This document shows, one piece after another, positions 11,599 through 27,738 of a stretch of 32,663 nucleotides of DNA (positions are counted from its first letter, which is position 1; each line of letters opens with the position of its first letter). The notes below the pieces were generated by a model. That model saw only the letters and a program-made list of their open reading frames with translations. It searched no databases and was not told the DNA's origin. Position numbers and translations under genes: made by a program. The stretch is taken from contig JAFUDS010000033.1 of assembly GCA_017464305.1 (NCBI GenBank), forward strand, positions 1 through 32,663, read 5' to 3'. Source of the stretch: Clostridia bacterium. GTDB lineage: Bacteria > Bacillota > Clostridia > Christensenellales > Aristaeellaceae.

Positions 11599-11642
11599 TT
11601 GACAGAAGGAAATGACGGAGCTTGCTCTGTAGAGAATCAAAA

Positions 11643-11691: not shown

Positions 11692-11751
11692 ATATTTCCT
11701 GCTTTATCCCAAAATGCTTCTATCCTATCGAATATTTGGCTTTTCTCCCGC

Positions 11752-11780
11752 TTGAAAAATATGCAATTGAATATTATAAT
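11752..11780 (+). promoter_or_regulatory. strong sigma-A-type promoter
   Basis: TTGAAA (11752-11757), exactly 17 bases, then TATAAT (11775-11780). It reads into the palindrome at 11781 and a GGAGGT ribosome site at 11822, but now leads only to a broken gene. Confidence 0.75.
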
Positions 11781-11815
11781 AGACCAAATCGATGGTTTTA
11801 TACGCGATTTGGTCT
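11781..11815. promoter_or_regulatory. operator-like palindrome AGACCAAATCG (copy 2)
   Basis: An 11-bp perfect inverted repeat (11781-11791 with 11805-11815) begins right after the -10 box, where a repressor would block transcription. With copy 1 it makes four occurrences of the AGACCAAATC core in 175 bases. Confidence 0.6.
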
Positions 11816-11833
11816 GGAATCGGAGGTGCGCAA

Positions 11834-12042
11834 ATGGAAAATACACACAAGGATTGTTTACAATTTCCAAGAAATTGGATGAATCGTTGCGCAGTAAATG
11901 TTCTGATTTCCGGCTGATGACGCAGACAAGAGACGCAATTCACATTACAATGGTAACTCCCTATGGCCTGACATGGAATAGCTACGCTGGTAATGTTCAA
12001 TCAGTCATTACAGCGGAAGATCTCTTCCGTAGCATGAATTGA
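11834..12042 (+). pseudogene. remnant of an AAA ATPase (DUF4143/ATPase_2-type), C-terminus only
   Basis: From about 11848 to the stop at 12042 one frame encodes an ending typical of bacterial DEXX-box/DUF4143-like ATPases: TISKKLDESLRSK, then LMTQTRDAIHITMVTPYGL, then N-x-YAGNVQSVITAEDLF. The ATG behind the ribosome site (11834) is in another frame and stops after 28 codons. No Walker A or B region remains. The promoter, palindrome and ribosome site upstream are well preserved. I interpret an internal deletion plus frameshift of a formerly complete gene. Confidence 0.6.
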
Positions 12043-12107
12043 CACAGCTTTCAGGTTTGTTGCTGAAAACCTTGCCTTTATTTGTTAGCGATGAGGAGGA
12101 CTGACCA

Positions 12108-12944
12108 ATGGATTTAGATAGCCTGGTTTCCACCCCCAGCGAGGAGACGGTGCAGGAATACGTAAACGTGATTCAAAACACGGATTTAAAAACAGGCTTG
12201 ATCGCGCTGTGGCTCCTCATCATAGGGCTGCTGGCGGTAAAGCTGATTCTAAGGGCGGTCAATCAGGGCCTGCAGCGGTCCCGAATCCCCAAAACGCTGC
12301 ATACCATGATTCGGACGCTGCTCCGTATTTTGTTGGTGTTTGTCGTGTTTCTGACGGTGGCAAATTATCTCGATCTGCCGATTACGCCATTTATTACGTT
12401 GTTAGGCCTTGTCGGATTGGCCCTGTCCTTGGCGTTGCAAGGCATGTTGAGCAATCTGGCGGGAGGTTTTCTCATTCTGGCGAGCCATCCCTTCGAGGTG
12501 GGGCACTATATAGAACAGGACGGGATTTCTGGCACGGTGCAGGAGATCCGTTTGCAGCACACCCGGTTAGAAACACCGGATGGAAAGATTATCTATATAC
12601 CCAATAGCAGCATTTCCTCCAGCAGGGTCATTAATTACACGGAAACGGGAAAACGAAGGGTTGAAATCAATGTCTCCGCTTCCTATGACAATTCTCCTGC
12701 GCAGGTCCGTGCTGCGGTGATGGCTGCAGCGCAAAAAGTGGAGGGAATCCTGTCCGAGCCCGCTCCAATTTTGTTCGTGGATAACTATGGAGATTCCGCC
12801 ATAGAATATGTCATTCAAGCCTGGGTGTCTAACCCGGATTTCATTACAGTCAAACGGGGATTGATGGAGGAACTGTATTCCACCTTCCAGCAAACTCAGG
12901 TGGAGATGACTTATCCGCATATGAATGTTCACATCTCTGAGTAG
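12108..12944 (+). CDS. mscS: small-conductance mechanosensitive channel MscS
   Basis: A 278-aa inner-membrane channel that releases solutes on osmotic downshock. Hydrophobic helices lie at about 30-48, 66-84 and 89-115. The third is the pore helix with the Gly/Ala-rich pattern GLALSLALQGMLSNLAGGFLIL. The conserved beta domain follows (HPFEVGHYIEQDGISGTVQEIRLQHTRLETPDGKIIYIPNSSI), then the alpha/beta C-terminal domain ending near 277. A GAGGAGG ribosome site fixes the ATG. It is convergent with hppA across a shared terminator at 13031-13061. Confidence 0.96.
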   Translation: MDLDSLVSTPSEETVQEYVNVIQNTDLKTGLIALWLLIIGLLAVKLILRAVNQGLQRSRIPKTLHTMIRTLLRILLVFVVFLTVANYLDLPITPFITLLGLVGLALSLALQGMLSNLAGGFLILASHPFEVGHYIEQDGISGTVQEIRLQHTRLETPDGKIIYIPNSSISSSRVINYTETGKRRVEINVSASYDNSPAQVRAAVMAAAQKVEGILSEPAPILFVDNYGDSAIEYVIQAWVSNPDFITVKRGLMEELYSTFQQTQVEMTYPHMNVHISE

Positions 12945-12967
12945 ACATCGGATGATATACTAATCCT

Positions 12968-13000
12968 GACGAAGGTGATCCTGCGCAGCGGGAAGGTCCA
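12968..13000 (+). pseudogene. relic of a metallophosphoesterase 3' end
   Basis: These 33 bases match 11529-11561 of the phosphoesterase gene at 29 positions by hand alignment without gaps. They still read TKVILRSGKVQ, against AKVILRGGKVQ in the intact gene. Similarity stops on both sides. It lies just after mscS, so it fits the tail of a deleted downstream phosphoesterase copy. Confidence 0.5.
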
Positions 13001-13030
13001 GATAATCTACTTGTCACTCACATTGCAAAA

Positions 13031-13061
13031 CAGAGCAGCCCGTCTGCACCAGGCTGCTCTG
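13031..13061. terminator. bidirectional terminator between mscS and hppA
   Basis: CAGAGCAGCC (13031-13040) pairs with GGCTGCTCTG (13052-13061). AAAA lies on the left and TTTTG on the right, so it can stop both convergent genes. Confidence 0.75.
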
Positions 13062-13101
13062 CTCATTTTGATGCGGTTAATTACACAAGTAGTATTCAGG
13101 A

Positions 13102-15252: not shown

Positions 15253-15282
15253 TGCACTATCCTCCTATTGATTCTTCTGATT

Positions 15283-15462
15283 TTACGCCGCGGGAGAAGT
15301 CTTTTCACCCGCTTGTTGAGCAAGCGCTTTCGCCTTCTCCTCCTTCATGATGGGCCACCATTCCTTGTAAGCGTTATAAAACGGGACGCCGAACCCAACG
15401 ATCCCCCACACAAGGCAATTTATGAACTCCTTTTTCGCTTGCTCATACCTTTCGCTATACAT
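15283..15462 (-). CDS. small single-span membrane protein upstream of hppA
   Basis: A 59-aa protein with a charged N-terminus (MYSERYEQAKKEF), one hydrophobic stretch (about 14-30), a Trp-Trp pair and a Lys/Ala-rich tail. The AAGGGAGGTGA ribosome site seven bases upstream is nearly perfect, which is the main reason to accept it. It is the first gene of the hppA operon. It could be a small accessory or regulatory subunit of the pyrophosphatase; that is inference from position only. I do not recognise a family. Confidence 0.75.
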   Translation of the reverse strand: MYSERYEQAKKEFINCLVWGIVGFGVPFYNAYKEWWPIMKEEKAKALAQQAGEKTSPAA

Positions 15463-15493
15463 GCGATTCACCTCCCTTCCCAAACCTTTTCCA

Positions 15494-15571
15494 ATCATAT
15501 CAGAACTGCGCGCTAATTTTCCGGAAAGATTTTCTGGCCGCAAGAAAAGAACAGCTTGCTCATGATATAAT
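15494..15571. promoter_or_regulatory. divergent extended -10 promoters for hppA operon and KdpDE-like pair
   Basis: On the minus strand, TG-A-TATGAT (-10 at 15494-15499) faces the small protein/hppA operon. On the plus strand, TG-A-TATAAT (15563-15571) precedes the sensor kinase. Neither has a convincing -35 box, as expected for extended -10 promoters or activator-dependent ones. Confidence 0.5.
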
Positions 15572-15608
15572 TATGCCGGTTCAGAATACTCAGAGGAGGA
15601 TGATCTGC

Positions 15609-16676
15609 ATGGAAAAAAGGCCCATCAAGAAGCAAATATCAAGTTTTCTCCTCTTCCTGCTGATCATTTGCTTCGCGTTGGGCGTTTCCTTTTTGTTAGC
15701 GCGTGTGGATAATGACAATAATCCATTTGCCATGGCTATATTCATGCTGGCTGTAGCCCTCATCGCCCGCGTCACAGAGGGATACCTTTGGGGAATTGCC
15801 GCTTCTGTGATGGGCACGCTGTGCGTGAATTATTTTTTCTCCTATCCATTCTATTCCTTCGATATTACCTATCCCGGATATCCCTTAACCGTGTCAGTCA
15901 TGCTGATCGTGTCGATTCTGATCAGCGCGTTGACTACTCAAATCAAAAAGCAGGAGCAACTACGATTCGAAATAGAGCGGGAGAAGATGCACGCTAATCT
16001 TCTCCGGGCCATTGCTCATGATATTCGCACGCCGCTTGCTTCTATTTTAGGCGCCAGCTCGGCCCTGCAGGAACAAAAGCTGTCATCTGAGGATCAGGAG
16101 TCATTGATCGAAAGCATCCATCGAGACGCACAATGGCTGGTGCGAGTGACGGAAAATCTGTTATCCGTCACCCGATTCAGCGGAAGTGATGTCGCGATAA
16201 AAAAAGAGGATGAAGTGCTGGAAGAAATTATCGGCAGCGCGATCCTGAAATACCATCAAATGCCCTTATCCTTGCCAGTCAAGGTTGAATCGCCAGAAGA
16301 AATCATTTTGGTTCCCGCGGATGGCGTCCTGCTGGAGCAGGTGCTTATCAATCTGTTTGATAATGTGAGCGCCCACGCGGAGGGAGCGACACAAATTTGG
16401 TTATCTGCGATGTCCGCCGAGAATCGCGTCATGATTTCTGTGGAGGATGATGGCCCAGGAATCCCGGATGCAATGCTGCCCCACATCCTGGATGAAACCA
16501 TCCAGCATACAAATCGTCTGCGTTCAGACGACCGACGAAGCATGGGCATCGGCCTGTCTGTCTGCCGATCTATCATTCGAGCTCATGGCGGCGAATTGAA
16601 TGCAGGGGAAAGCCCTCACGGAGGTGCCGCCTTCCGCTTTTATCTTCCCCGCAAGGAGGAAAACAATGCAACCTAA
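15609..16676 (+). CDS. KdpD-like sensor histidine kinase, short form
   Basis: A 355-aa membrane kinase. Residues about 11-110 form the DUF4118 four-helix region typical of KdpD (ending LTVSVMLIVSILISALTTQIKKQEQ). HisKA follows with His137 in AIAHDIRTPLASILG, then a HATPase domain with the DNVSAHA N-box and DDGPGIPD. It lacks the KdpD N-terminal nucleotide-sensing and USP domains, so it is about 40% of full length. This short architecture is common in Clostridia. The ATG at 15609 has GAGGAGG nine bases upstream; the ATG at 15600 touches the ribosome site. It overlaps the regulator gene by 11 bases. No kdpFABC, ktr or trk genes are visible nearby. Confidence 0.88.
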   Translation: MEKRPIKKQISSFLLFLLIICFALGVSFLLARVDNDNNPFAMAIFMLAVALIARVTEGYLWGIAASVMGTLCVNYFFSYPFYSFDITYPGYPLTVSVMLIVSILISALTTQIKKQEQLRFEIEREKMHANLLRAIAHDIRTPLASILGASSALQEQKLSSEDQESLIESIHRDAQWLVRVTENLLSVTRFSGSDVAIKKEDEVLEEIIGSAILKYHQMPLSLPVKVESPEEIILVPADGVLLEQVLINLFDNVSAHAEGATQIWLSAMSAENRVMISVEDDGPGIPDAMLPHILDETIQHTNRLRSDDRRSMGIGLSVCRSIIRAHGGELNAGESPHGGAAFRFYLPRKEENNAT

Positions 16677-17388
16677 TCAGCACTGTAAAATCTTGATTAT
16701 CGAAGATGATCCGGGAATTTCTAATTTCATAAAGACAGCTGTGAACGCCGCTGGATATATGGCGATTGTGGCGGAAAGCGGAAAAACCGCGCTGCAAATG
16801 ATTTCTTCCCATTGCCCTGATTGCATCTTGCTGGACCTGGGGTTGCCGGATATGGACGGAAGGGAAATCATCCGCAGTGTGCGCTCCTGGACACAGACCC
16901 CCATCATCGTCATTTCAGCCCGCAGCATGGAGGAGGACAAAGCCGCCGCTCTGGATGATGGTGCGGATGATTATGTGACCAAGCCCTTCGGCACCGTAGA
17001 ATTGCTGGCTCGCATCCGTACTGCCCTGCGCCACACCAGAACCACCGCAGAAAGCAATGAAATTGGACTAATTGGTACTTACCATGTGGGTGGGTTAGAA
17101 ATAGATTATAAAAAGATGCGCGTTCTGCTGGATGGCAGTGAGGTGCATCTGACCCCGAATGAGTTTAGGATTGTGGCGCTGTTGGGCAAGCACGCAGGCC
17201 GGGTGATGACCTATAAGGCTATGCTGCAGGAGCTGTGGGGCCCTTCTGCCAGTATGGATAACAAAATTCTGCGAGTACACATGGCCAGCATCCGCAGGAA
17301 AATCGAACCTGATCCCAACGAACCACGCTATATCTTTACAGAGGTGGGTGTGGGTTATCGGATGGCGGAAAACGAAGAAAAGTCTTGA
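16666..17388 (+). CDS. KdpE-like OmpR-family response regulator
   Basis: A 240-aa regulator. The receiver domain (about 7-120) has the acidic pair IIEDDP, phospho-acceptor Asp57 in LLDLGLPD and Lys in YVTKPFG. The winged-helix DNA-binding domain (about 140-238) has HLTPNEFRIVALLGKHAGRVMT and ends VGVGYRM. AAGGAGG lies upstream of the ATG within the kinase 3' end, so the pair is translationally coupled. Its targets are likely to include genes for ion balance, perhaps the divergent hppA operon; this is inference. Confidence 0.92.
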   Translation: MQPNQHCKILIIEDDPGISNFIKTAVNAAGYMAIVAESGKTALQMISSHCPDCILLDLGLPDMDGREIIRSVRSWTQTPIIVISARSMEEDKAAALDDGADDYVTKPFGTVELLARIRTALRHTRTTAESNEIGLIGTYHVGGLEIDYKKMRVLLDGSEVHLTPNEFRIVALLGKHAGRVMTYKAMLQELWGPSASMDNKILRVHMASIRRKIEPDPNEPRYIFTEVGVGYRMAENEEKS

Positions 17389-17487
17389 TCATACAAAGGA
17401 GAAATGAGTTTAGGTCAAACGAAGTATTTCAGGAGCATTGGAGCTGGACGGCCTGGTGGGAAGCCTGCTATCATTCTCCATCTACGG

Positions 17488-19236
17488 TTACAATTGATAT
17501 TTTTTCTGGAAATCACGCCGGTCATTTTCGTAGTTCGGCGCGTGAGCCCTTCGAATGGATCCGAGATACTCATGCACCTCCAGGGAGCCGCTTCCCAGTT
17601 CGATCATGGCCACCGCTATATTGGAGCAGTGCGCGCCGATTCGCTGGAAATTTGTGATCAAGTCATTGAGGATGAATCCATGAGCAATGGTGCATTTGCC
17701 TTCCTGCAGCCGCTCTACATGCCGCAATTTCATCTGTTCGCATAATTCGTCGATCACCTCCTGCAAGGGCTCGACTTTACCGGCCATGGCCTCATCTTCA
17801 TGAATCAGCGCGCCGACCGCCAGGTGCATGATTTCCTGGATGGCTTGGTTCATGACGGATAATTCGGCGGCGGCGTCATCGGAGAAGGAGAGCTGTTTCT
17901 CGTGCATTTCGTCTGCGCTTCGGGCGATATTCAAGGCATGGTCTGTGATCCTTTCGAAGTCTGAAATGGTGTGCAGGGAAAGAGAAACCAATTGCGTTTG
18001 CCGTTCGGTCAATTCCTGTCCTGTCATTTTGACCAGGTAGGTCCCCAAAGCATCCTCAAAGGAATCCCCTTCATTTTCTAATTCTTTTACATGTTGATAG
18101 CCTTCATCGGTATAATGTGTCAGTAATCCGATGGCATCCCGCACCGCTTCATCGGCGTGGGCGGCCATGTCATTCATGGTTAATCTGCTTTGCTCCACGG
18201 CCAGGGCGGGGTGGGAGAGGAATCTTTCCTCCAGCCTTACCCCGGGCTGAGATGAACTTGCCTTGGAGGGGATGAGCAGCGCGGCCGTCGCCTCCAGCAC
18301 ATCGGTAAAGGGGCACAGCACGCATAGGATGGCCAGTCTCAGGATGGTATTAATCGCCGCGATGGAAAATGGATTCATGCTCTGGCACAGAAAATCGAAG
18401 TGAAACATGGCGTGGGCGATATAGAACAGGGCGGCGCAGACCATGACGCCCGCAAAGGAGGCCACCAGATAGCTGAGCGCTGTTCGTTTTCCTTCCGTGT
18501 TAGCCCCCAGCGCGGAAAGCAGCACTGGCAAGGACGCGCCGATGCAGATGCCCATCAAGAGGGGCAGTGCGGCTTGCATGGTCATGACCCCCGTGATGGA
18601 TAAGGCCTGCAGAATGCCTACCGCGGCGGATGCGGATTGCAGCATGGCCGAGAAAACAAATCCGAACAGGATACCCATGGCGGGATGGGTAAGGGTGGCG
18701 ATCAGGCCAGTGAACCAGGGCTGGGACCCCAGATTGCCGACGGAATCACTCATCTGGCTCATGCCTACCATGAGCACGGCGAAGCCCATGAGAATGTCCC
18801 CTAACTGGTGGTGGACCTGTTGCTTGCTGAAAACGCGCAGCAGGATGCCTGCGACGGCGATCACCCCCGTCAAAGTTGCGGTGGAGAGCAGAGAAATCCA
18901 TCCCGCTGCGCTGTCCAGATAGCTTAGACAGATGATCCACCCCGTGATGCTGGTGCCTAAAATGGCGCCCAGGATCACGGAAATGGCCTGCCGGGGCTTC
19001 ATCATGCCGGAGTTGACGAAGCCCACCACCATGACGGATGTGGCGGAAGAGGACTGGATCACCGCCGTCACGCCCGTCCCCAGCAAAATTCCCTTCCATT
19101 GTGTGCCGGATAGGCGAAACAGCACCGGACCCAGCCGATTGCCGGAAATCCTTTTGAGGCCATCTCCCATCAGCGTCATCCCGAAAAGAAAGAGGGAGAT
19201 GCCGCAGCACAGCGCGATCAAACTTGAAATACTCAT
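17488..19236 (-). CDS. Na+/phosphate cotransporter (NptA/PhoU-domain type)
   Basis: A 582-aa membrane protein of the Na/Pi-cotransport II family. Two inverted repeats carry the signature motifs GVTAVIQSSSATSVMVVGF (about 55-73) and FVFSAMLQSASAAVGIL (about 194-210), which build the substrate site. About ten hydrophobic segments end near residue 325. The C-terminal third (about 340-575) is a soluble PhoU-like helical bundle, as in bacterial relatives. It probably uses a Na+ gradient to import phosphate. It is transcribed divergently from phoPR, with GTTAAATC repeats between them, which argues for Pho control. The start follows GGAGGAAACGAAGG. Confidence 0.93.
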   Translation of the reverse strand: MSISSLIALCCGISLFLFGMTLMGDGLKRISGNRLGPVLFRLSGTQWKGILLGTGVTAVIQSSSATSVMVVGFVNSGMMKPRQAISVILGAILGTSITGWIICLSYLDSAAGWISLLSTATLTGVIAVAGILLRVFSKQQVHHQLGDILMGFAVLMVGMSQMSDSVGNLGSQPWFTGLIATLTHPAMGILFGFVFSAMLQSASAAVGILQALSITGVMTMQAALPLLMGICIGASLPVLLSALGANTEGKRTALSYLVASFAGVMVCAALFYIAHAMFHFDFLCQSMNPFSIAAINTILRLAILCVLCPFTDVLEATAALLIPSKASSSQPGVRLEERFLSHPALAVEQSRLTMNDMAAHADEAVRDAIGLLTHYTDEGYQHVKELENEGDSFEDALGTYLVKMTGQELTERQTQLVSLSLHTISDFERITDHALNIARSADEMHEKQLSFSDDAAAELSVMNQAIQEIMHLAVGALIHEDEAMAGKVEPLQEVIDELCEQMKLRHVERLQEGKCTIAHGFILNDLITNFQRIGAHCSNIAVAMIELGSGSLEVHEYLGSIRRAHAPNYENDRRDFQKKYQL

Positions 19237-19256
19237 CCTTCGTTTCCTCCGGATTT

Positions 19257-19330
19257 ATCCTACCCCCGCCATGTTAAATCTGTGGTCCCCTCCCTGTTAA
19301 ATCCAGGTTAAATCTTCGAAAAACTATATC
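19257..19330. promoter_or_regulatory. shared PhoP-box-like region with divergent -10 elements
   Basis: Three direct copies of GTTAAATC lie at 19273-19280, 19296-19303 and 19307-19314. Their starts are 23 and 11 bases apart, close to the 11-bp phasing of PhoP/PhoB binding sites. Candidate -10 boxes lie about 10 bases beyond each end of the repeats: TAGGAT on the minus strand (19257-19262) and TATATC on the plus strand (19325-19330). This arrangement suits phosphate-starvation control of both the cotransporter and phoPR. Confidence 0.6.
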
Positions 19331-19380
19331 TCATTGCGCCAGTTCATGGTAAGATGCGAAGGGGAGGAGGGGAAATCAGG

Positions 19381-20055
19381 ATGATTTATTTGCTGGAGGA
19401 TGACGATAGTATTCGGAAATTGGTGATTTACGCGCTGGAATCCCAAGGGTTTGAGGCGAGGGGCTTTGAAACGCCGCGAGAATTTAGCGCTGCCATGGCC
19501 CGGCAGCTTCCCCGGCTGATTCTGCTGGACATCATGCTGCCGGACGAGGATGGCCTCTCGATCCTGAAGAGCTTGCGGAAACAGCCGGAGACTGCGCGTC
19601 TCCCGGTGATTATGCTCACCGCGAAGAACGCGGAGTATGATCGGGTGGAGGGCCTGGATGCCGGTGCGGATGATTATATCTCCAAACCCTTTGGTATGAT
19701 GGAGTTGATGGCCCGGATTCGCGCCGTGCTGAGGCGGACGGAGGAAACGCCTGTGGAGATTCTGCAGGTGGGAGATCTGCGTATGGATCCGGATCGCCAT
19801 GAGGTTTGGGTGGGAGAAGAGCAGGTGCAGTTAACCTATAAAGAATTCCTGCTGCTGCGGTTGCTTCTGGAAAACAAGGAGCGGGTTTTGACCCGGGAGG
19901 TTCTGCTGGAGAGAATTTGGGGGCTTGGCTCCGAGCGGGAGAATCGAACGCTGGATGTGCATATTCGTACCCTGCGCGCCAAATTAGGCGAAGCCGGAAT
20001 CTATGTCCAGACTGTGCGGGGCGTGGGGTATCGTTTTTCGGAGGGAAGCCTATGA
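19381..20055 (+). CDS. phoP: PhoP/PhoB-type response regulator
   Basis: A 224-aa OmpR-family regulator. The receiver domain has LLEDDDSI, phospho-acceptor Asp50 in LLDIMLPDEDG, and Lys in YISKPFG. The winged helix (about 125-222) has QLTYKEFLLLRLLLENKERVLTREVLL and ends VRGVGYRF. The ATG at 19381 has GGGGAGGAGGGG upstream. It overlaps the kinase start by 4 bases (ATGA). Assignment to phosphate control rests on the adjacent Na+/Pi cotransporter and the repeats between them; by itself the protein could be another PhoB-like regulator. Confidence 0.88.
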   Translation: MIYLLEDDDSIRKLVIYALESQGFEARGFETPREFSAAMARQLPRLILLDIMLPDEDGLSILKSLRKQPETARLPVIMLTAKNAEYDRVEGLDAGADDYISKPFGMMELMARIRAVLRRTEETPVEILQVGDLRMDPDRHEVWVGEEQVQLTYKEFLLLRLLLENKERVLTREVLLERIWGLGSERENRTLDVHIRTLRAKLGEAGIYVQTVRGVGYRFSEGSL

Positions 20056-21422
20056 CGAGAACCATTTTCCGGAATACATTCCTGGTGGGCGTTTCTGTGC
20101 TGGTATTATGCGCCGGCTTGTTCTTCGGCATGCAGTATACTCAGATTCAGGATGAAACCTATGCCGCCCTGCAGCAGGAGGCGGTTTATGCCGAGCAGGG
20201 GCTGCTGATGGGGGGCATCCCTTATTTGCGGGCGCTGAATAATGAGAATCGAATTACCTGGATCGATGCGGCGGGGACGGTTTTGTATGATAATGATTTT
20301 CCTCTCCCGATGCCGTCTCAAAATGAGATGCCGGAGGTGAGGCAGGCGCTGACCTCTGGGGAGGGGAAGGGAATTCGGCGGTCGGAGAGCAGCGGGGAAG
20401 TCACCATGTATTACTCCCTCCGGTGCGAGGATGGCTCCGTGCTGCGGCTGGGCCGATCCTTGCGGGCGGTGCAGGACGCGTTACTGGCGGTCAGCCCAGT
20501 GCTATGGGTGCTGATGCTGGTCTTGATCATTTCCGGCGTGCTGGCTTTCCGGGTGGCCAATCAGATTGTACGCCCAATCAATGAGATGGATCTGGAGCAC
20601 CCGGAGATCACGCCTTATCCCGAATTATCCCCCTTGGTGGATAAAATTCAGGAACAGAAGCTGACCATCCTGGAGGAGGCGGAGCAGCGGGAAGCTATTC
20701 GCCGGGAATTCTCCGCCAATGTTTCCCATGAATTGAAAACGCCTTTAACATCGATCTCCGGGTTTGCGGAGCTGATGGCGGAAGGGGTTGTTCAGGGAGA
20801 TAAGGTGCAGGAGTTCGGGCGGGATATCTATCAGGAGTCCCAGCGCCTGATAGCGCTGATTAATGACATTATTCGGTTGTCTCAGCTGGATGAGCAGAAT
20901 GTGGAACCCCTCTGGGAATCTTTGGACCTGTATGAGCTGGCAGGCTCCGTCCTGGATAGCCTGCGCCCCGCGGCGGATAGGCGAAATATCGTGCTGAATT
21001 TGGCGGGAGCGCCGGCGATCATTTCCGGCGTATATCCCCTGGTCAGTGAAATGGTTTACAATTTATGTGATAACGCCATAAAATACAATCACCCTGGCGG
21101 TTTGGTCACCGTGACGGTCTCTCAGCAGGAGGGGAGGGTGGTGCTGGCGGTAGCGGATACAGGAATTGGCATCTCCCCGGAGCATCAAAAAAGAGTCTTT
21201 GAACGGTTTTATCGCGTGGATAAGAGCCATTCCCGGGAGGTAGGGGGCACGGGCCTGGGCCTTTCCATCGTGAAGCACGGTGCTCAGTTTCATGGTGCTG
21301 TGGTTCAGCTGGAAAGCGTTCTGGAAAAGGGAACTACCGTTATGCTCAAATTTCCAGCCTCCTCAGAAGTAACGGATATTCTGATGGCGGTGGATGATCA
21401 GCAGGTGAAAGAAAATGTATGA
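20052..21422 (+). CDS. phoR: PhoR-type sensor histidine kinase
   Basis: A 456-aa kinase. The N-terminal membrane helix lies at about 9-28, an outer domain at about 30-142, and a second helix at about 148-168. A linker follows, then HisKA with His226 in FSANVSHELKTPLTSISG. The HATPase domain has the N-box NLCDNAIKYNHPGG, the G1 box ADTGIGI and the F/G2 region FERFYRVDKSHSREVGGTGLGLSIVKH. The order and length fit PhoR kinases that lack a PAS domain. It is coupled to the regulator gene. Confidence 0.9.
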   Translation: MTRTIFRNTFLVGVSVLVLCAGLFFGMQYTQIQDETYAALQQEAVYAEQGLLMGGIPYLRALNNENRITWIDAAGTVLYDNDFPLPMPSQNEMPEVRQALTSGEGKGIRRSESSGEVTMYYSLRCEDGSVLRLGRSLRAVQDALLAVSPVLWVLMLVLIISGVLAFRVANQIVRPINEMDLEHPEITPYPELSPLVDKIQEQKLTILEEAEQREAIRREFSANVSHELKTPLTSISGFAELMAEGVVQGDKVQEFGRDIYQESQRLIALINDIIRLSQLDEQNVEPLWESLDLYELAGSVLDSLRPAADRRNIVLNLAGAPAIISGVYPLVSEMVYNLCDNAIKYNHPGGLVTVTVSQQEGRVVLAVADTGIGISPEHQKRVFERFYRVDKSHSREVGGTGLGLSIVKHGAQFHGAVVQLESVLEKGTTVMLKFPASSEVTDILMAVDDQQVKENV

Positions 21423-21436
21423 TGAAAGCCCAGCTA

Positions 21437-21496
21437 TTGACCGTCGTAAGATAATATGATATTATCAATGTAACATTCATTTTTGAATGTTACATT
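21437..21496 (+). promoter_or_regulatory. hxlR promoter with overlapping operator palindrome
   Basis: TTGACC (21437-21442), 17 bases, TATTAT (21460-21465). From 21467 a perfect 13-bp inverted repeat (21467-21479 with 21484-21496, loop TTTT) carries GTAAC and GTTAC cores. Its place at the transcription start suggests autorepression by the HxlR protein. Confidence 0.7.
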
Positions 21497-21516
21497 CAAA
21501 AACGGAGGCGTTGATC

Positions 21517-21849
21517 ATGCTGACAAAAGAAGAACTGCCGGATTGCCCGGTTGCCACCACAGTACAGCTGATCGGGAACAAATGGAAGCTGCTGATCCTG
21601 CGCAATTTGCTGGCCCGGCCCTGGCGCTTCAATGAGATGCTGCGCTCCATTCCCGGCATCAGTCAGAAGGTGCTGACGGACAATCTGCGTGCCCTGGAGG
21701 CTGACGGGATCATCCACCGCACGGTTTATCCTGAGGTGCCGCCCAGGGTAGAGTATTCCTTGAGCGAGCTGGGGGATTCCATGCGGCCCATCATCAAGGC
21801 CATGGAAGCCTGGGGTCAGAGATATCAGCAGATGGCACGGGAAGCGTAA
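21517..21849 (+). CDS. HxlR-family winged-helix regulator
   Basis: A 110-aa transcription factor of the HxlR family. It shows the early CPVATTVQLIGNKWKLLILRNLL block with its Cys at residue 8, the recognition region RFNEMLRSIPGISQKVLTDNLRALEADGII, and the wing HRTVYPEVPPRVEYSLSELG. Members often sense quinones, aldehydes or disulfide stress through that N-terminal Cys and control nearby oxidoreductase genes. GGAGGC precedes the ATG at 21517. It is convergent with the ACGX/redox operon and is its most likely local regulator; this is inference. Confidence 0.93.
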   Translation: MLTKEELPDCPVATTVQLIGNKWKLLILRNLLARPWRFNEMLRSIPGISQKVLTDNLRALEADGIIHRTVYPEVPPRVEYSLSELGDSMRPIIKAMEAWGQRYQQMAREA

Positions 21850-21855
21850 ATGGCA

Positions 21856-21899
21856 AAAGGAAAGAGGACGCTGACATTTTGCGGCGTCCTCTTTCCTTT
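21856..21899. terminator. bidirectional terminator between hxlR and the redox operon
   Basis: A 16-bp perfect stem (21856-21871 with 21884-21899) has A-rich left and T-rich right arms. It ends hxlR and overlaps the stop codon of the last gene of the minus-strand operon. Confidence 0.8.
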
Positions 21900-22440
21900 A
21901 CTGATCGTATTTGTTTGTCAGTTGATAGGTTCTGCTCCGCAATTCGCTGGAGAAGGAAGAAAACTCCGCCCAGGCTTCCGTAAGATAATAGCCAATCACC
22001 ACATCCCTGCTGCTTCCAAACTGGCTGGTCAGCACAGGGCTCTCGTCAAAGCAGCGGTCAATGATCGCCTGATCGGTGGTAAAGTTCACCTTGCCGCCCA
22101 GCCGAACATAGGTCATGGTTTCCTGGTCGCAGACGCAAAGCTGAATGTACGGATGCGCCAGCATTTCCCTGTAGGATGTATAGAACGTCACCGTATCAAA
22201 ATACAGCACGCCGTCCTCTTCAAACTTGAATTCGATGGGGCGGATCTGCGGATTGCCGTCCAATCCCAGGGTAGTGGCGTATTGCAGCGGAAAGCGATGG
22301 AACACATCCACTACCACGCTGATGCCGTCCTCAAAGTTCAAGGATTTGAAGAAATCCAGGGTGGTTTCTTCTGCGTGGGCTGTCATGGTCATTCCTCCCA
22401 AGGCGATGATGCAGAGCAGGATAGCAAGCATTCTTTTCAT
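21898..22440 (-). CDS. exported pyridoxamine-5'-phosphate-oxidase-fold protein
   Basis: A 180-aa protein. Residues 1-23 form a signal peptide (MKRMLAILLCIIALGG then AHA before Glu-Glu). The rest resembles the split-barrel flavin-binding PNPOx family: LGLDGNPQIRPIEFKFEEDGVLYFDT, then REMLAHPYIQLCVCDQETMTYVRLGGKVNF. Proteins with this fold are normally cytoplasmic FMN, F420 or haem binders, so an exported one is unusual. The start at 22440 has GAGGT nine bases upstream; the in-frame ATG at 22455 would overlap the preceding gene and has a poorer site. It is the last gene of the operon starting at 25494. Ligand and role are unknown. Confidence 0.82.
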   Translation of the reverse strand: MKRMLAILLCIIALGGMTMTAHAEETTLDFFKSLNFEDGISVVVDVFHRFPLQYATTLGLDGNPQIRPIEFKFEEDGVLYFDTVTFYTSYREMLAHPYIQLCVCDQETMTYVRLGGKVNFTTDQAIIDRCFDESPVLTSQFGSSRDVVIGYYLTEAWAEFSSFSSELRSRTYQLTNKYDQ

Positions 22441-22451
22441 AAGCTTATACC

Positions 22452-23402
22452 TCATTCCATGGTCACGACGATTTTGCCGTTTATTTTGTGACTGTCCAAG
22501 GCGATACAGGCGTCCTTCACTTGGTCAAAGGTGAAATGCGCGCCGTAGGCGGGGACGATGTGATGGGCATTCAGGAAAGCGAAAATATCGTCCATCACCT
22601 GTTGGGTGGGATAGTTACTGAAAAAGCCTGTCAGATACACACCGTTAGGGATGTCCTTGATGGGATCAAAATTATTCAGCGTAAATACACCGCCCAGGAT
22701 GCCCGTGTTGCAGACGATCCCTCCATGTTCCACGGCCTGCAGGGTGTCGCCCAAAGTCTTGGGGCCGATCAGCTCCAGGGCTTTGGTCGCGCCATGGATT
22801 TTTCCGGTCAGCTGCCTATCGTCCAGGATGGCTTCATCAGCATCCTTCAAAAGCGGTAATTTGCTTTCCCGGTGTGTGGTGGCGATGACTTTGCAGCCCA
22901 AGCCCTTGGCAATCTGGATGGCCGCATAGCCCAAGGCACAGGTGGCCCCGCGAATCAGCAGCGTATCTTCTTGCTTTAATTGCAGGCATTCAAACAGGCT
23001 TCCCCAAGCTGTGAAGAAGGTTTCCGGCACGGCGGCCAGAGCATCCCAGGACAGATCGGTTTCCACGACAAACACATGATGGGCGGGCAGCAGGGCGTAT
23101 TCGGCATAGCCACCATTGAAGCTGCGACCCATGCCTCCCATGAGAGCCACCACTTTCTGGCCCTTAACAAAGCCGGTATCAGATGGATCGGCGATCTCAC
23201 CCACGCACTCGATGCCGGGCACCACGGGCTTCTGAATATACGGCGCTTCGATTTCTGACAAACGCAGAATCTGTTCGGAATGATTCATACCAAAGCCGTG
23301 CACCTTTACCAACACCCAGTCAGCCTTCACCTGGGGCATGGGAAGGTCGGACAGCACAACGTCTTCTGCAGGGGTAACCTTTTCAATCTGTACGGCTTTC
23401 AT
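22452..23402 (-). CDS. MDR-family quinone oxidoreductase / zinc-free alcohol dehydrogenase
   Basis: A 316-aa NAD(P)H-dependent oxidoreductase of the medium-chain dehydrogenase family. The N-terminal GroES-like domain includes HGFGMNHSEQILRLSE and VPGIECVGEIADP. The Rossmann domain has LIRGATCALGYAAIQIAKGLGCKVIATT. Catalytic and structural zinc-binding Cys patterns are absent, pointing to the quinone-oxidoreductase branch. It starts 13 bases after the PNPOx-ferredoxin gene behind AAGGAGGAATC, so it is in the ACGX operon. HxlR-type regulators commonly control such enzymes. Substrate unknown. Confidence 0.9.
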   Translation of the reverse strand: MKAVQIEKVTPAEDVVLSDLPMPQVKADWVLVKVHGFGMNHSEQILRLSEIEAPYIQKPVVPGIECVGEIADPSDTGFVKGQKVVALMGGMGRSFNGGYAEYALLPAHHVFVVETDLSWDALAAVPETFFTAWGSLFECLQLKQEDTLLIRGATCALGYAAIQIAKGLGCKVIATTHRESKLPLLKDADEAILDDRQLTGKIHGATKALELIGPKTLGDTLQAVEHGGIVCNTGILGGVFTLNNFDPIKDIPNGVYLTGFFSNYPTQQVMDDIFAFLNAHHIVPAYGAHFTFDQVKDACIALDSHKINGKIVVTME

Positions 23403-23415
23403 GGGTGATTCCTCC

Positions 23416-24027
23416 TTACAGTCGTTCAATGGCCTGCACGGGGCAATTCTCCGCGCAGTTGCCGCATTGCAAGCAGTGGTTTGCGTCAATCTCGTAGGGA
23501 CTTCCTTCTGTAATGACATCCTGCGGACACACGCCCTGGCAGGTGCCGCAGCCGATGCAGGCGTCCGTGATACGATAGCCCTTGGGCTTAATCTGCGCGT
23601 TGCCCACGGCGAAGTATTCCCGGGCGATGGGCCGCGTGGACAGGCAGAAGTATTCGATGGTGTAATCCCGGATGACGAACATGGTGTCAATGTTTTTCGT
23701 CTCGCCGGGATACACGTTTTCCAGGTAGGGCTGCTCCTGGTAGAGTATGTCCCGCCATTTTTTCTGCTCGTTTTCAGGCACTTCCACGGCCCTGCCGGAC
23801 AGACGGATGGTTTCTTTATATTTCGTATAGCCCAGGATCTGCACCCTTCCGTCCCGCTTGAGCTGGCTGGAAAAATATTTACCTCTGGCAGTCAGGAAAT
23901 AAATGTCCGTTCCCTCAAAATGAATGGCGCTGATATTGCGCACCTGCGGAGCGCCCTCCTCATCCACCGTGGCAAAGTCCAGTACACCCACATAGCCCAG
24001 CTTTTTCAGGCACGTCATCGCATCCAT
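23416..24027 (-). CDS. PNPOx-fold flavin-type protein fused to 2[4Fe-4S] ferredoxin
   Basis: A 203-aa two-domain protein. Residues about 1-145 form a PNPOx-like split barrel (GVLDFATVDEEGAPQVRNISAIHFEGTDIYFLTARG), probably binding FMN. Residues about 158-203 hold two ferredoxin motifs, CIGCGTCQGVCP and CLQCGNCAENCP. It is likely an electron-transfer protein. Its ATG directly abuts the stop of the radical SAM gene, so the two are tightly co-translated. It may supply electrons to the radical SAM enzyme's clusters or act on the modified peptide; both are inference. Confidence 0.92.
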   Translation of the reverse strand: MDAMTCLKKLGYVGVLDFATVDEEGAPQVRNISAIHFEGTDIYFLTARGKYFSSQLKRDGRVQILGYTKYKETIRLSGRAVEVPENEQKKWRDILYQEQPYLENVYPGETKNIDTMFVIRDYTIEYFCLSTRPIAREYFAVGNAQIKPKGYRITDACIGCGTCQGVCPQDVITEGSPYEIDANHCLQCGNCAENCPVQAIERL

Positions 24028-25083
24028 TTACAATTCCTCCCCGGTCATGTCATTCTTGGTTTTCCAGCATTGCGGATCAGGGGCGTAGAAATCGCCGTTT
24101 GCGCCGCTGGCTACTGCCGGGCAGCCCCGGCACCAGGCTTTCAGCTCGCACTTGGCGCACTTCTTGAATTTATCGTATTCCCGGTATTGCTCCATTTCGC
24201 AGACCCACAGGTCTGCCAACCGATCTTCAAAAACATTTCCGACTTTGCTGTTCTGCACCCGGCGGCAGGCGTACACATCGCCGGTGGGCAGGATGGTCAG
24301 ATGGCAGTTGCCGCAGTTGCAGCCGCCATAAATCATCTCAGGATCGGCGTTTTCGGGCAGCTTGAATTCTCCCGTTTCGTACTGGTACAGCGTCCACAGG
24401 TGATCCTTGCGGTTGAAGTAAGTATCATACCCGGCGGCTTCGTATGCTTTGAACTTGGCGTCGCAGATTTCCAACAGGTACCGATATTCCTGGGGCGTCA
24501 TACCGGTATCCTTTTCCTCGCTGGTGGGACAGTAGCGCCCGAAGGCAAACACATTGGCTCCGGCCTTCACCACCTCGTCGATGATGCCGGGCACCTCGTG
24601 GATGTTCGTTCCGCTGACGGTGGTCATCACCACCGAGCGAATCCCGGCCCGGTTGATGGTCTGAATCTTCTCCAGCGTGGTCTGATAGCTGCCCGGCTTT
24701 CGGAACCAATCGTGGGTCTGCTCCAGGCCGTCGATGGACAGCTGATACTTTTCGCAGCCCAGCAGCTTCATCCGCTGGCAGACTTCGTCCGTCAGGTGGA
24801 AGGGGTTTCCCATCAGGGTGAAGGGGATTCTCTTAACGGCCAGCAGCTCCAGCAGGGGCCAAAAATCGGGATGCAGGATGGGATCGCCGCCGGTAATATA
24901 GAAATAAGGCAGGCGATCATACATTTCGCAGAAATCTTCACAATTGGCCACCACTTCCTGCATCTGCTCCCAGGTCATGCTGTCCAGCTTCTTGCAGGTG
25001 TTTTCCGCAAAGATATAGCAATGCTTGCACCGCTGGTCGCAGTCATCGGTGATATGCCATTGGAAGGCAAAATACTGTTTCAT
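24028..25083 (-). CDS. radical SAM/SPASM-type enzyme of the ACGX peptide system
   Basis: A 351-aa radical SAM protein. The cluster motif is Cys15-x3-Cys19-x2-Cys22 (DDCDQRCKHCYIF), followed by the YITGGDPILHPDF SAM-binding segment. The C-terminal part (about 255-345) has many cysteines in SPASM-like order: CGNCHLTILPTGDVYACRR, then KKCAKCELKAWCRGCPA, then DPQCW. SPASM/twitch-type clusters are typical of RiPP maturases. It is encoded 186 bases after an ACGA-repeat precursor, matching the family I know as the radical SAM enzyme of the 'ACGX' system. The chemistry is not established to my knowledge; thioether or other Cys-linked crosslinks are plausible. Confidence 0.92.
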   Translation of the reverse strand: MKQYFAFQWHITDDCDQRCKHCYIFAENTCKKLDSMTWEQMQEVVANCEDFCEMYDRLPYFYITGGDPILHPDFWPLLELLAVKRIPFTLMGNPFHLTDEVCQRMKLLGCEKYQLSIDGLEQTHDWFRKPGSYQTTLEKIQTINRAGIRSVVMTTVSGTNIHEVPGIIDEVVKAGANVFAFGRYCPTSEEKDTGMTPQEYRYLLEICDAKFKAYEAAGYDTYFNRKDHLWTLYQYETGEFKLPENADPEMIYGGCNCGNCHLTILPTGDVYACRRVQNSKVGNVFEDRLADLWVCEMEQYREYDKFKKCAKCELKAWCRGCPAVASGANGDFYAPDPQCWKTKNDMTGEEL

Positions 25084-25269
25084 GATCGGATGCCTCGCTT
25101 GAATTTGGAGTTTGCCCCGGCAGCCGCAGCCGCCAGGGCGAGGGTAGAATGGGAATTACTTGTCGCCAGCCCCTCAGTTCGGCATTGTCGCTCCGTTTCG
25201 CTATCGCTCACGGTGCTCTGTGCCTCACTGGGCTTTCAGCTCGCTGCATCCCGCACTGCGGGCGCTCGC
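25084..25269 (-). other. structured spacer between precursor and radical SAM genes
   Basis: This 186-base gap has no credible gene. Read on the minus strand it is a run of GAGC/GAG-type words (for example GTGAGCGATAGCGAAACGGAGC) with short hairpins, including CCCGCAGTGCGGG just after the precursor and a GC-rich fold at 25115-25138. Such a spacer could protect precursor mRNA or lower enzyme expression relative to peptide. Confidence 0.45.
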
Positions 25270-25494
25270 TTACGCCCCACAGGCAGCGCCGCACGCAGCG
25301 GGCTTTTCCTCGGCAGGCTTGTCGGCAGCGCCGCATGCGGCAGGCTGCTCAGCGGGCTTGTCAGCAGCACCACAGGCGGCACCACAGGCAGCCGGCTTCT
25401 TCTCTTCCGCGGGCTTGTCAGCAGCGCCGCAAGCGGCACCGCAGGCGGCAGGAGCCATCTGCACGTTCCAGGAAGCCAGATTCTTCAGGGCCAT
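25270..25494 (-). CDS. ACGX-repeat RiPP precursor peptide
   Basis: A 74-aa peptide with a short leader (MALKNLASWNVQMAP) and a repetitive core. The core is four units of P-A plus one or two ACGA motifs, each of the first three followed by ADKPAE and a short Glu/Gln/Lys linker. The seven cysteines are at 18, 22, 37, 41, 54, 68 and 72. The third unit has only one ACGA, the others two. The AAGGAGGATGAATCC ribosome site is near perfect. It is the first gene of the operon, next to a radical SAM/SPASM-type enzyme. This matches the ACGX-repeat peptides catalogued as radical SAM targets; mature product and function are unknown. Confidence 0.88.
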   Translation of the reverse strand: MALKNLASWNVQMAPAACGAACGAADKPAEEKKPAACGAACGAADKPAEQPAACGAADKPAEEKPAACGAACGA

Positions 25495-25536
25495 GGATTC
25501 ATCCTCCTTTTCAGATTCGGGATACCCCGTATGCAT

Positions 25537-25607
25537 AGATTAAATGAAAAAGGCACACGGCACAAGTACGCACCTTTTTGTAACTACCCCAGTTACTAAA
25601 AAGTAAC
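25537..25607 (-). promoter_or_regulatory. ACGX operon promoter region with GTAAC/GTTAC half-sites
   Basis: On the minus strand TTGTGC (25560-25565), 17 bases, TAATCT (25537-25542) is a modest promoter. Just upstream are three half-sites: GTAAC (25580), GTTAC (25592) and GTAAC (25603). The first two form the perfect dyad GTAACT-ACCCC-AGTTAC. HxlR-type operators use related cores, and the hxlR promoter palindrome also contains GTAAC/GTTAC, though with wider spacing. Confidence 0.5.
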
Positions 25608-25808: not shown

Positions 25809-25943
25809 ATCTAAAATTACCCTTGGATGATGATTTTTTTCCCTTGATGTATGCTCTGTTAGCAAAGTCCGCAAATCGTATCAGATAGTCAATTTCTCCA
25901 ATTACCGGAACCTGACAAACACCTTCGGGCGCGCCAATGAATG

Positions 25944-26040
25944 CATCGAATGCGGTCAATGTGAAGGGGTCTGCCCTCAGCATTTGCCGATTATCGACCT
26001 GCTGAAGAAGGTATCCGCTCATTTTGATCACTGAGCAGAT
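25944..26040 (+). pseudogene. Fe-S C-terminal relic, copy A of a 97-bp inverted duplication
   Basis: The frame encodes [17 protein letters not shown] then [11 protein letters not shown] and stop, the [4Fe-4S] C-terminal tail typical of Fe-S aldo/keto reductases. No upstream part of such an enzyme exists here. It matches 30270-30366 on the opposite strand at 87 of 97 positions without gaps (hand count), continuing past the stop codon to GAGCAGAT. The stretch 25809-25943 between this and the nitroreductase relic shows nothing recognisable. Confidence 0.65.
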
Positions 26041-26046: not shown

Positions 26047-27738
26047 TTATGCCCGCACTATCCTGCACGTGTGATGCTTATACAACGGATCATCATTTCG
26101 GGTTTCTCTGTTATAGTTGATCCCCACCAACAAGATGTTCCCTTGATAATGAATCAGCCGATCTGGATACTCCTGACGAAGAATCTGGTTTAATGCGGTA
26201 TCCGCTTCTTGATTATATTTCAGTTCCACCAGCAAAGCAGGCATATGTACTCCTGGCCGGGGAAGATATACTACATCCGCATATCCTTTCCCGGAATCCA
26301 GCTCCAGAATGGAGGTATAATACTTCTGCGCGGCATAATACGCCAATTGCACCCCATAACTCAATGCTGATTCGTCGTTGTACGTTTTATTTGCGGCCTG
26401 ATTATGCGCCTTCTCGATCAATTCCGCCACGCGATTTTCATCCTCATTCAATGTGGCCTGCAACAATTCTTGAGAAGTGCGAAATTGCTCAAATGTACCG
26501 ATCCACTCATCTGATTCAGTCGATGTCTTGAATTCTTCCAATATTTCCCGATTCGGGATGAAAATTTCCCCCTGTTCGGAATCTATTCTTCCTTCACTTT
26601 CGTCCCCTTCGAAGCCAAGATACCCCAGATGAATTAACAGCGCAAGAATATCATTCCTGTTACGGAAAGAGGTCATATCATTCTGGTATCCCTTTAGATT
26701 AACCCTGACCCTCGCGCCGTCCATCAGCAAGGCGATGGTATCTTTTAACCCGTCATAATCCAGCTTGATAAAATCGGCTAATGCCTCATAATTCTCTGTC
26801 TTATTCCAATAATTATCCACGATTCCATTCCGCATGGCGCTTACCACGGACAAAGGGCTATAGATCGATAGTTTATGGTCTGAATACGCGCCGCGCCTGA
26901 AGTCTGAACGTTTATTCACCGGAATATAGTCCGTTACCCGATAACCATCATACCAGTCTGAAATCTTTTGATAATCCATTTTATACTCATCGCACAGATC
27001 TTTGACCTCTTTTTCCGTAAACCCCGTATATTCCGCCAACCGCATGGGCTGCGTCATGGAGTATTCATCAAACATGTTCAGCGCAGAGTGCTCTCCATAT
27101 TTTTTAATGGGGAGAATCCCTGTCATGTAAGCCAAAGCAATATGTGTGTTATCCTTCAGCAAATCCCGCAGAAAATCCAGGTATTCCGTTTGTCCCTTCT
27201 TGTCATTTTGCCGGGTTCGGAAGACAGCGTCCCATTCGTCGATCACAATCACTACCTGCAAGCCATTGGAGGAATACACATCTTCGATCGCCTGCAGCAA
27301 GTCGGTCTCGTCAAAAAACTCCACATCCGGATATTTCTTTTTGAGGTCGCGAATGATCAAGATCTGCATATTCGCCAAGGATTTATCTACTGAAACTCCC
27401 TTTTTGAAAAATCTGGTCATTACGACGCGAATCACATCAAATTTCCCTAAATAGGCATCCCATTCAATCCTACCATTTTCCATAGGAACGGGCGCTGTTT
27501 TTGCCAGCAGGCGATCGCGGAACAAGCACTGGCTGTTCGCCTCTCTATCGTAATAAGCGCAAATCATATCCGCCGCCATCGTTTTCCCAAACCGACGCGG
27601 TCGTGAAACACTGACGTACTTCTGTTTCGTCTTCACGACAGAGTTCAGATACTGCAGCATTTCTGATTTATCAATGAAAATTTCTGAATGCACAGCCTCT
27701 TCATAAGCTGCTTTGCCTGGATTTAAATACGCACCCAT
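26047..27738 (-). CDS. AAA-ATPase-like / PD-(D/E)XK nuclease-like protein
   Basis: A 563-aa protein of the AAA-ATPase-like plus PDDEXK_9 (DUF1703) family that is expanded in gut bacteria. The opening MGAYLNPGKAAYEEAVHSEIFIDKS is typical. The P-loop-like motif is VSRPRRFGKT (about 44-53) and Walker B is VVIVIDEWD. Near the C-terminus the nuclease-like core shows Asp488 and Glu505-Leu-Lys507 (ALLVELKYN). A GAGGAG ribosome site lies upstream of the ATG. Biological role is unresolved for the family. It stops 6 bases from the Fe-S relic, in opposite orientation, suggesting an insertion or rearrangement boundary. Confidence 0.9.
   Translation of the reverse strand: MGAYLNPGKAAYEEAVHSEIFIDKSEMLQYLNSVVKTKQKYVSVSRPRRFGKTMAADMICAYYDREANSQCLFRDRLLAKTAPVPMENGRIEWDAYLGKFDVIRVVMTRFFKKGVSVDKSLANMQILIIRDLKKKYPDVEFFDETDLLQAIEDVYSSNGLQVVIVIDEWDAVFRTRQNDKKGQTEYLDFLRDLLKDNTHIALAYMTGILPIKKYGEHSALNMFDEYSMTQPMRLAEYTGFTEKEVKDLCDEYKMDYQKISDWYDGYRVTDYIPVNKRSDFRRGAYSDHKLSIYSPLSVVSAMRNGIVDNYWNKTENYEALADFIKLDYDGLKDTIALLMDGARVRVNLKGYQNDMTSFRNRNDILALLIHLGYLGFEGDESEGRIDSEQGEIFIPNREILEEFKTSTESDEWIGTFEQFRTSQELLQATLNEDENRVAELIEKAHNQAANKTYNDESALSYGVQLAYYAAQKYYTSILELDSGKGYADVVYLPRPGVHMPALLVELKYNQEADTALNQILRQEYPDRLIHYQGNILLVGINYNRETRNDDPLYKHHTCRIVRA

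Follow-up and report, generated by a model that had tools for sequence, protein, structure and literature searches.

An ACGX-repeat peptide locus as the proposed peptide arm of an HxlR-controlled stress regulon beside reversible ADP-ribosylation

What is the role of ACGX-repeat peptides, and to which cellular system do they belong? We addressed this question at a locus of a gut-type Clostridia bacterium (assembly GCA_017464305.1, contig JAFUDS010000033.1). The stretch analyzed, hereafter the window, is 32,663 nucleotides long and forms part of contig C6 of genome G000, which comprises 2.53 Mb in 51 contigs and is given as 68.6% complete. It encodes an ACGX-repeat precursor, a radical S-adenosylmethionine (SAM) enzyme and three redox-type proteins, together with a regulator of the HxlR family. 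Since precursor and enzyme meet the ACGX models of NCBIfam (TIGR04341 and TIGR04340, respectively), the pair itself is already known. What is new is the setting, a regulon in which this ribosomally synthesized and post-translationally modified peptide (RiPP) is tied to a redox-type sensor and to two proteins of reversible ADP-ribosylation, a zinc macrodomain protein (Zn-Macro) and SirTM. On balance, we read the window as the peptide arm of an HxlR-controlled thiol/electrophile-stress regulon that stands beside reversible ADP-ribosylation. The linkage and the shared operator are results of sequence analysis; the chemistry, the sensing and the target are what we infer.

Zinc macrodomains are erasers of ADP-ribosylation, and SirTM is a writer. 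Among 391 genomes of the class, G000 included, TIGR04340 exceeded its cut-off in 16 and Zn-Macro was found in 71. All 16 genomes with TIGR04340 had Zn-Macro, compared with 55 of the 375 others (Fisher p 3e-13, a value that overstates the certainty of the co-occurrence because such tests count related genomes as independent). Counted by genus, the figures were 10/10 versus 38/213, and within the family of G203 they were 10/11 versus 4/27, the exception, G486, being given as 74% complete. The enzyme and Zn-Macro lie within ~4 kb of each other in 12 of the 16 genomes and on different contigs in G000, G390, G410 and G426. In a set of 100 relatives, Zn-Macro was present in 40 overall and TIGR04340 over its cut-off in 10. 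Six of these carry an ACGX peptide (G000, G010, G034, G037, G046 and G081), and Zn-Macro exceeded its cut-off in every one; four show no ACGX peptide beside the enzyme (G003, G021, G044 and G057), and two of them have Zn-Macro.

The gene neighborhoods were then compared. Loci came from a scan of genome contigs (71 loci), from the 100 relatives and from the 391 class genomes; once duplicates were removed and the window was added, 93 were tabulated, 88 of them core. Core counts exclude the distant TIGR04340 relatives L110, L112, L113, L114 and L178, beside which no peptide with at least two ACG was found. The last of these, from G277, scores 308 bits against TIGR04340, below the cut-off, and no Zn-Macro over the cut-off was found in that genome. 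In the usual layout, a divergent HxlR gene precedes precursor, radical SAM enzyme, nitroreductase (~192 aa, PF00881), a PNPOx-ferredoxin fusion (PNPFer), Zn-Macro and SirTM, in this order; the cultured strain Frisingicoccus caecimuris DSM 28559 (L049) carries the whole set. Of the 45 core loci whose flanks reach 1.3 kb or more upstream and 5 kb or more downstream, 41 have HxlR. In the 64 core loci with HxlR, it is divergent upstream of the precursor in 55 and convergent downstream in seven, the window among them. Where 2.5 kb or more of downstream sequence is available, PNPFer accompanies 53 of 67 core loci. The corresponding count for Macro and/or SirTM, taken from 3.5 kb upstream to 6 kb downstream where the downstream flank reaches 5 kb or more, is 42 of 57 core loci, or 15/22 after dereplication at 85% identity. 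In these relatives, Zn-Macro matches NF003163 at 364.5 bits (cut-off 272), its nearest Protein Data Bank (PDB) entry being 8rsi; SirTM is nearest to 5a3a and has QG in place of HG, a motif as in the part of PMC4518038 covered here. The neighbors of precursor and enzyme are thus far from unrelated throughout, in keeping with a preliminary description of this DNA made from its letters.

That description had placed five genes and a regulator, which sit in the window as follows:

25270..25494, minus strand: ACGX-repeat precursor peptide, 74 aa (TIGR04341 52 bits, cut-off 28; ribosome site and frame)
24028..25083, minus strand: radical SAM/SPASM maturase (TIGR04340 598.8 bits, cut-off 400; PF04055, PF13186)
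23416..24027, minus strand: PNPOx-fold flavoprotein fused to a 2[4Fe-4S] ferredoxin, PNPFer (PF01243 and Fer4)
22452..23402, minus strand: MDR-family quinone oxidoreductase-like protein (PF08240, PF00107)
21898..22440, minus strand: exported PNPOx-fold protein (PF01243; signal peptide read by eye)
21856..21899, no strand: hairpin between the HxlR and exported PNPOx genes (18 pairs, -31.5 kcal/mol, z -7.3)
21487..21849, plus strand: HxlR/DUF24 regulator with N-terminal CPVA (PF01638, 118.7 bits)
approx. 25152..25275, minus strand: ~105-bp insertion at the 3' end of the precursor gene (from alignment; also in L036, absent from L035, L037 and L041)

All elements of the run were recovered where they had been placed. 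The precursor, whose translation starts MALKNL with AAAGGAGG upstream as ribosome site, has seven Cys, every one in ACGA, and the maturase has CxxxCxxC at residues 15-22 plus the SPASM cysteines. The radical SAM and PNPFer genes meet without a base between them, TAA being followed directly by ATG; 13 bases separate the PNPFer and MDR genes, and 11 the MDR and exported PNPOx genes if the product of the latter starts MKRML. An earlier in-frame ATG of the exported PNPOx gene (22455) would overlap the MDR gene, but the proteins of L037, L039, L040 and L106 begin near MKRML. The HxlR gene is convergent with the run, and one hairpin is common to both transcripts. The nearest solved relative of the MDR protein is the quinone oxidoreductase 4dup (84.5 bits). 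For PNPFer, AlphaFold2 gave a predicted local distance difference test score of 90.8; among PDB folds, those closest to it belong to a NimC/NimA family protein (2ig6) and to PNPOx/PhzG-type flavoproteins, and its eight ferredoxin Cys are invariant across 13 homologues. The earlier proposal that the five genes form one pathway held only in part: the run is operon-like, but its five-gene order is not a conserved unit, since MDR and nitroreductase replace each other, the exported PNPOx occurs in only 5 of the 93 tabulated loci, and the common partners are Zn-Macro and/or SirTM. The Macro-SirTM pair of this genome sits elsewhere, on contig C51.

Next, we looked for DNA that the peptide operon and the distant pair have in common. 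The elements in question are:

21470..21497, no strand: dyad upstream of HxlR, GTAACATTCA-TTTT-TGAATGTTAC, running on to ACATTC
25592..25607, minus strand: GTTACTTTTTAGTAAC upstream of the precursor; the same dyad precedes SirTM at C51:80148-80163 of G000
25580..25596, no strand: overlapping GTAAC-N7-GTTAC dyad
25564..25574, minus strand: GGTGCGTACTT, second conserved promoter element

Two places in the window fit the pattern GTAACN{4,16}GTTAC, against an expected 0.02: one ahead of HxlR (21470), the other ahead of the precursor (25580). As a general operator this pattern was rejected, for it fits the window and few relatives: of 82 loci that extend 500 bp or more upstream, 11 have it there, and it has 7 hits elsewhere in 1.08 Mb. 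In G000 it is found at three further places beyond the locus and its duplicate contig, which are not evidently promoters of redox genes. Operators were surveyed over 1.1 kb ahead of the enzyme gene, in the 68 loci that have a precursor and 600 bp or more of upstream DNA. GTTACN6GT[AG][AC] was present in 60 of the 68 (~100-fold enriched relative to the remainder of the loci), AAGTGCGTACTT with up to one mismatch in 57 (139-fold) and GAATGTTACATTC with up to one mismatch in 25 (~100-fold), enrichments that are only descriptive because the patterns were chosen from the same upstream sequences. The first two together appear to describe the operator better. G000 has exactly two copies of GTTACNNNNNNGTAAC: one precedes the precursor (C6:25592-25607), and the other lies 97 bp ahead of the SirTM start (C51:80148-80163) and is followed by AAAAAAGTGCGTACTT; this count was made after the SirTM site had been seen. 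The presence of this element at both places makes it likely that the unlinked Macro-SirTM pair and the peptide operon are under one control signal.

Which signal might the regulator sense? Its N-terminal Cys is present in 64/64 loci, as CPVA in 62 and as CPIA and CDVA in one each. The nearest solved relative is YybR (4a5m, 98.4 bits), which we take to be HypR; an assignment of the window protein to RrpB (NF047364) failed, at 119.8 bits against a cut-off of 175. According to the part of PMC6943732 covered here, the regulators HypR, YodB and CatR use an N-terminal Cys to detect HOCl, quinones and diamide, and hypO, azoR1, yodC and catDE are members of their regulons. The present regulon resembles these Bacillus subtilis systems in its DUF24/HxlR protein, the N-terminal Cys and the control of nitro-/azoreductase-type genes, whereas it adds a RiPP and, by the shared operator, SirTM. 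Together with the dyads before HxlR and precursor and the frequency of HxlR at the loci, the conserved Cys bears out the earlier view that a redox-type HxlR regulator belongs to the system.

The reductase position of the operon was also informative. Among the 81 core loci that extend 800 bp or more downstream, a nitroreductase alone was found in 62 and an MDR protein alone in 18; none had both and one (L092) had neither. On the enzyme tree (85 rows, omitting L178 and the fragmentary or odd L092, L100, L101, L103, L104, L105 and L170), the MDR label changes nine times, and at least six of these changes are forced by well-supported branches. Both reductases occur inside the window's 12-row clade (support 84/87) and among the Bacteroidota loci L097-L099. 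The MDR and nitroreductase families both include quinone and ene reductases, and the repeated filling of one slot by two unrelated NAD(P)H reductases suggests a shared task. Such swaps, in which the two families never meet, would also suit a different explanation, namely that the repeats are converted into a redox group for the MDR or nitroreductase and PNPFer, SirTM and Zn-Macro being merely co-regulated stress genes. Mycofactocin and pyrroloquinoline quinone are peptide-derived redox cofactors of this kind; the flavin/Fe-S partner in 53/67 loci and the unlinked Macro/SirTM in 15/57 also agree with it. We nevertheless consider a cofactor rather unlikely, as all 16 TIGR04340 genomes of the class sample have Zn-Macro even where it is unlinked, the many Cys and the variable repeat number look more like a scaffold than a cofactor precursor, and no peptidase recurs near the loci.

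The precursors themselves are highly regular. Across related loci, 73 precursors contain 449 Cys, of which 432 are in ACG; the residue X is Ala in 295 repeats, Ser in 83, Thr in 52 and Val in 2, and Asp follows within three residues past X in 241/432. There are 2 to 10 ACG per precursor and 161 CGxACG pairs, the spacers are acidic and Lys-rich, and 56 of the 73 end in a GDK, SDK, ADK or DKK tail. Our script rule scored 9/77 loci as lacking a precursor; L053, L072, L091, L097, L109 and L174 do show one, and in L051, L092 and L105 none was found. Regular ACGX repeats, paired cysteines and charged spacers are what a metallothionein-like peptide that binds or stores metal might show, the radical SAM step shaping its ligands. 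Yet the recurrent neighbors are redox and ADP-ribosylation genes, and the recurrent clusters listed include neither metal transporters nor regulators of metal type, so that we regard a metal-binding or metal-storing role as quite improbable. As for export, a precursor next to a SPASM radical SAM enzyme is the usual sactipeptide or ranthipeptide layout, and several maturase families of these types match the enzyme, well below their cut-offs; an exported antimicrobial or signalling RiPP might be suspected from this. No transporter or protease cluster recurs near the core loci, where ABC genes stand at scattered places in 12 loci, though a peptidase may be encoded farther away; moreover, the partners are redox and ADP-ribosylation genes and the promoter elements are conserved across many families. 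An exported product is accordingly very improbable. The radical SAM gene of L036 (2220-3341) has an in-frame insertion of ~22 codons relative to that of the window.

Several observations weigh against the reading of the window as the peptide arm of a regulon beside ADP-ribosylation. Besides the dependence among related genomes in the Fisher tests, 55 of 375 genomes without ACGX have Zn-Macro. Macro and SirTM are absent from the window locus itself, which therefore lacks the adjacency of the known SirTM extended operon. In five other ACGX genomes whose pair is unlinked or distant (G010, G037, G390, G410 and G426), the element was not found near SirTM. The window precursor ends in ACGA: the ~105-bp insertion has cost it the usual C-terminal tail (GDK/SDK in relatives). 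This tail may be dispensable, or else the window lineage is losing the function. Tested as a repeat, the inserted stretch had no second copy in the 21 genomes searched. The element separates Macro from SirTM in four genus mates that lack ACGX (G001, G002, G006 and G036), where a different small gene follows it (G006 has a shorter version of the small frame, and a mismatch in one of the motifs); it therefore marks an HxlR-SirTM regulon rather than the peptide alone. GTGCGTACTT, with up to one mismatch, lies near the pair in 7 of 32 Zn-Macro loci of ACGX-free genomes. Finally, HxlR and PNPFer stand beside Macro-SirTM with no ACGX peptide in 5 of 32 ACGX-free loci (L135, L140, L203, L204 and L205). 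Because such sets exist, the pair does not need the peptide and the peptide is not the pair's sole business; a role of PNPFer as electron donor dedicated to the radical SAM enzyme is likewise unlikely.

These last sets and the element before SirTM in the four genus mates speak for an explanation in which HxlR, PNPFer, Zn-Macro and SirTM are the real unit, PNPFer or a flavin partner is the SirTM substrate, and peptide, maturase and reductase are an add-on under the same promoter. Against it stand the tie of ACGX to the pair in 16/16 genomes and the 14 of 67 ACGX loci that lack PNPFer, several of which keep Macro and SirTM (L102, L106, L172, L173 and L175). We judge it unlikely, though worth keeping in mind. 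Beside the element in the ACGX-free genus mates, a small protein with a NWAYGV...GVGTI(F/Y)Y...SHADPL module is encoded between element and SirTM (L131, L132, L136 and, in part, L129); an exported two-module version of this type stands beside the precursor in L036 (889-1617).

The clade of the window bears on the absence of the pair from its locus. The 15 loci without a linked pair include the window and L035, L037, L040, L041, L042, L051 and L091 of its clade. In L036, L038 and L039 of the same clade, SirTM lies upstream of the precursor, and in the latter two it is divergent from the precursor's promoter region; L039 retains only the first half of Macro (query residues 1-147), adjoining HxlR, and Macro of L038 runs off the contig. 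Because these three keep SirTM upstream, the window lineage may have lost a linked pair. Upstream of the window precursor, near the place of SirTM in these three loci, is an AAA-ATPase_like/PDDEXK_9 gene (26047-27738, minus strand). Beside the precursor, a short frame (25888-26035, plus strand) has the look of an aldo/keto reductase's Fe-S tail; no other part of such a gene is present, and the frame is probably a decayed gene.

If the ADP-ribosylation pair and the peptide belong to one regulon, what does SirTM modify? As far as the covered parts of PMC4518038 and PMC11490716 state, SirTM ADP-ribosylates lipoylated GcvH-L in staphylococci and streptococci; by the latter source, GcvH-L is the only known target of SirTM, those of other SirTM/Zn-Macro systems being unknown. 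We searched for this carrier and found no PF01597 match at E 0.001 in G000, itself 68.6% complete. GCV_H exceeded its cut-off in 3 of 20 ACGX genomes, strongly in G390 (149 bits) and weakly in G349 (29.1) and G201 (22.2 bits). In a control of 30 out of the 55 ACGX-free Zn-Macro genomes, it did so in nine, strongly only in G395 (140.8 bits; the rest at most 26.1). The absence of GcvH was thus set aside as an argument for the peptide as target, since strong matches are rare in both groups, and SirTM must have other targets in the class generally. The ACGX peptide is a candidate only where it exists.

The SirTM extended operon of Lactobacillales and Staphylococcaceae, as described in the covered parts of the same two papers, is similar in that SirTM and Zn-Macro stand beside flavin/NAD(P)H oxidoreductases with a link to stress, and in that the operon encodes a small thiol-type carrier candidate. 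There, the carrier is lipoylated GcvH-L, accompanied by LplA2, OYE and LLM; here, a ribosomal Cys-repeat peptide is found with a radical SAM maturase, a nitroreductase or MDR protein and PNPOx-ferredoxin. The terms radical SAM, nitroreductase and HxlR have no occurrence in the main texts of PMC4518038 and PMC11490716. The NCBIfam models TIGR04340 (rSAM_ACGX) and TIGR04341 (ACGX-repeat peptide) describe the same adjacent pair but name no function or partners, whereas HxlR, nitroreductase or MDR, PNPOx-ferredoxin, Zn-Macro and SirTM can be named here. That the families are catalogued without a known product, as had been remarked, agrees with our search: the ACGX names were not found in the literature searched, which leaves most subscription papers and bioRxiv preprints outside. 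Among the matches listed, no title or abstract joins SirTM, macrodomain or sirtuin with radical SAM, nitroreductase or RiPP.

TIGR04340 over its cut-off also takes in relatives without an ACGX peptide (L110, L112, L113 and L114). In the first three (491-501 bits, from the window's genus or family), the neighbor is a TPM-domain-type protein with a Cys/Ser-rich tail, SSCSSCSSC...SSF (PF04536 at 36.6 bits in L113 and at 20.4, below the cut-off, in L110), which is possibly a second substrate type of these enzymes. L114 (G003:C86), a 436.8-bit match, has two large genes of ABC-transporter type some kb away; read by eye, one of them starts like a C39-peptidase transporter. No ACGX peptide was found there. 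The first 20 kb of contig C34 of G000 (L115) are the reverse complement of window positions 4115-24114 at 99.995% identity, probably an assembly duplication that also copies most of the ACGX cluster. G359 holds two ACGX loci, G359:C6 and G359:C26 (L175 and L176), whose precursors differ.

Taken together, the window as peptide arm would work as follows. By analogy with its family, HxlR would sense thiol/electrophile stress through its N-terminal Cys and, judging from the conserved DNA, would act at GTTAC-N6-GTAAC/GTGCGTACTT promoters. Promoters with this DNA precede the ACGX operon and, elsewhere in the genome, SirTM followed by Zn-Macro. The radical SAM enzyme would modify the ACGX cysteines, and the product, presumably intracellular because no exporter or protease gene recurs, would work in the cytoplasm as a multi-thiol scaffold for redox reactions or for the handling of electrophiles. 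An exchangeable NAD(P)H reductase, which is MDR in the window and nitroreductase at other loci, would serve the peptide product, and PNPOx-ferredoxin the wider module. In the least certain step, SirTM and the macrodomain would switch the system, possibly by ADP-ribosylation of the peptide, much as SirTM acts on lipoylated GcvH-L in staphylococci and streptococci. A bolder version, which we put forward tentatively and hold to be doubtful, is that the modified ACGX peptide is both carrier and target of SirTM/Zn-Macro in anaerobic gut bacteria: a ribosomal multi-thiol peptide would take over from lipoylated GcvH-L as a redox scavenger gated by ADP-ribosylation, and nitroreductase or MDR would take over from OYE. 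If this is true, reversible ADP-ribosylation of a RiPP would, as far as the literature searched shows, be without precedent. ACGX peptides without a function and the targets of SirTM/Zn-Macro are two unknowns that co-occurrence, a shared promoter element and the reductase swap bring together. Thus, the tie to ADP-ribosylation gives the ACGX family, whose function is unassigned, a testable role.

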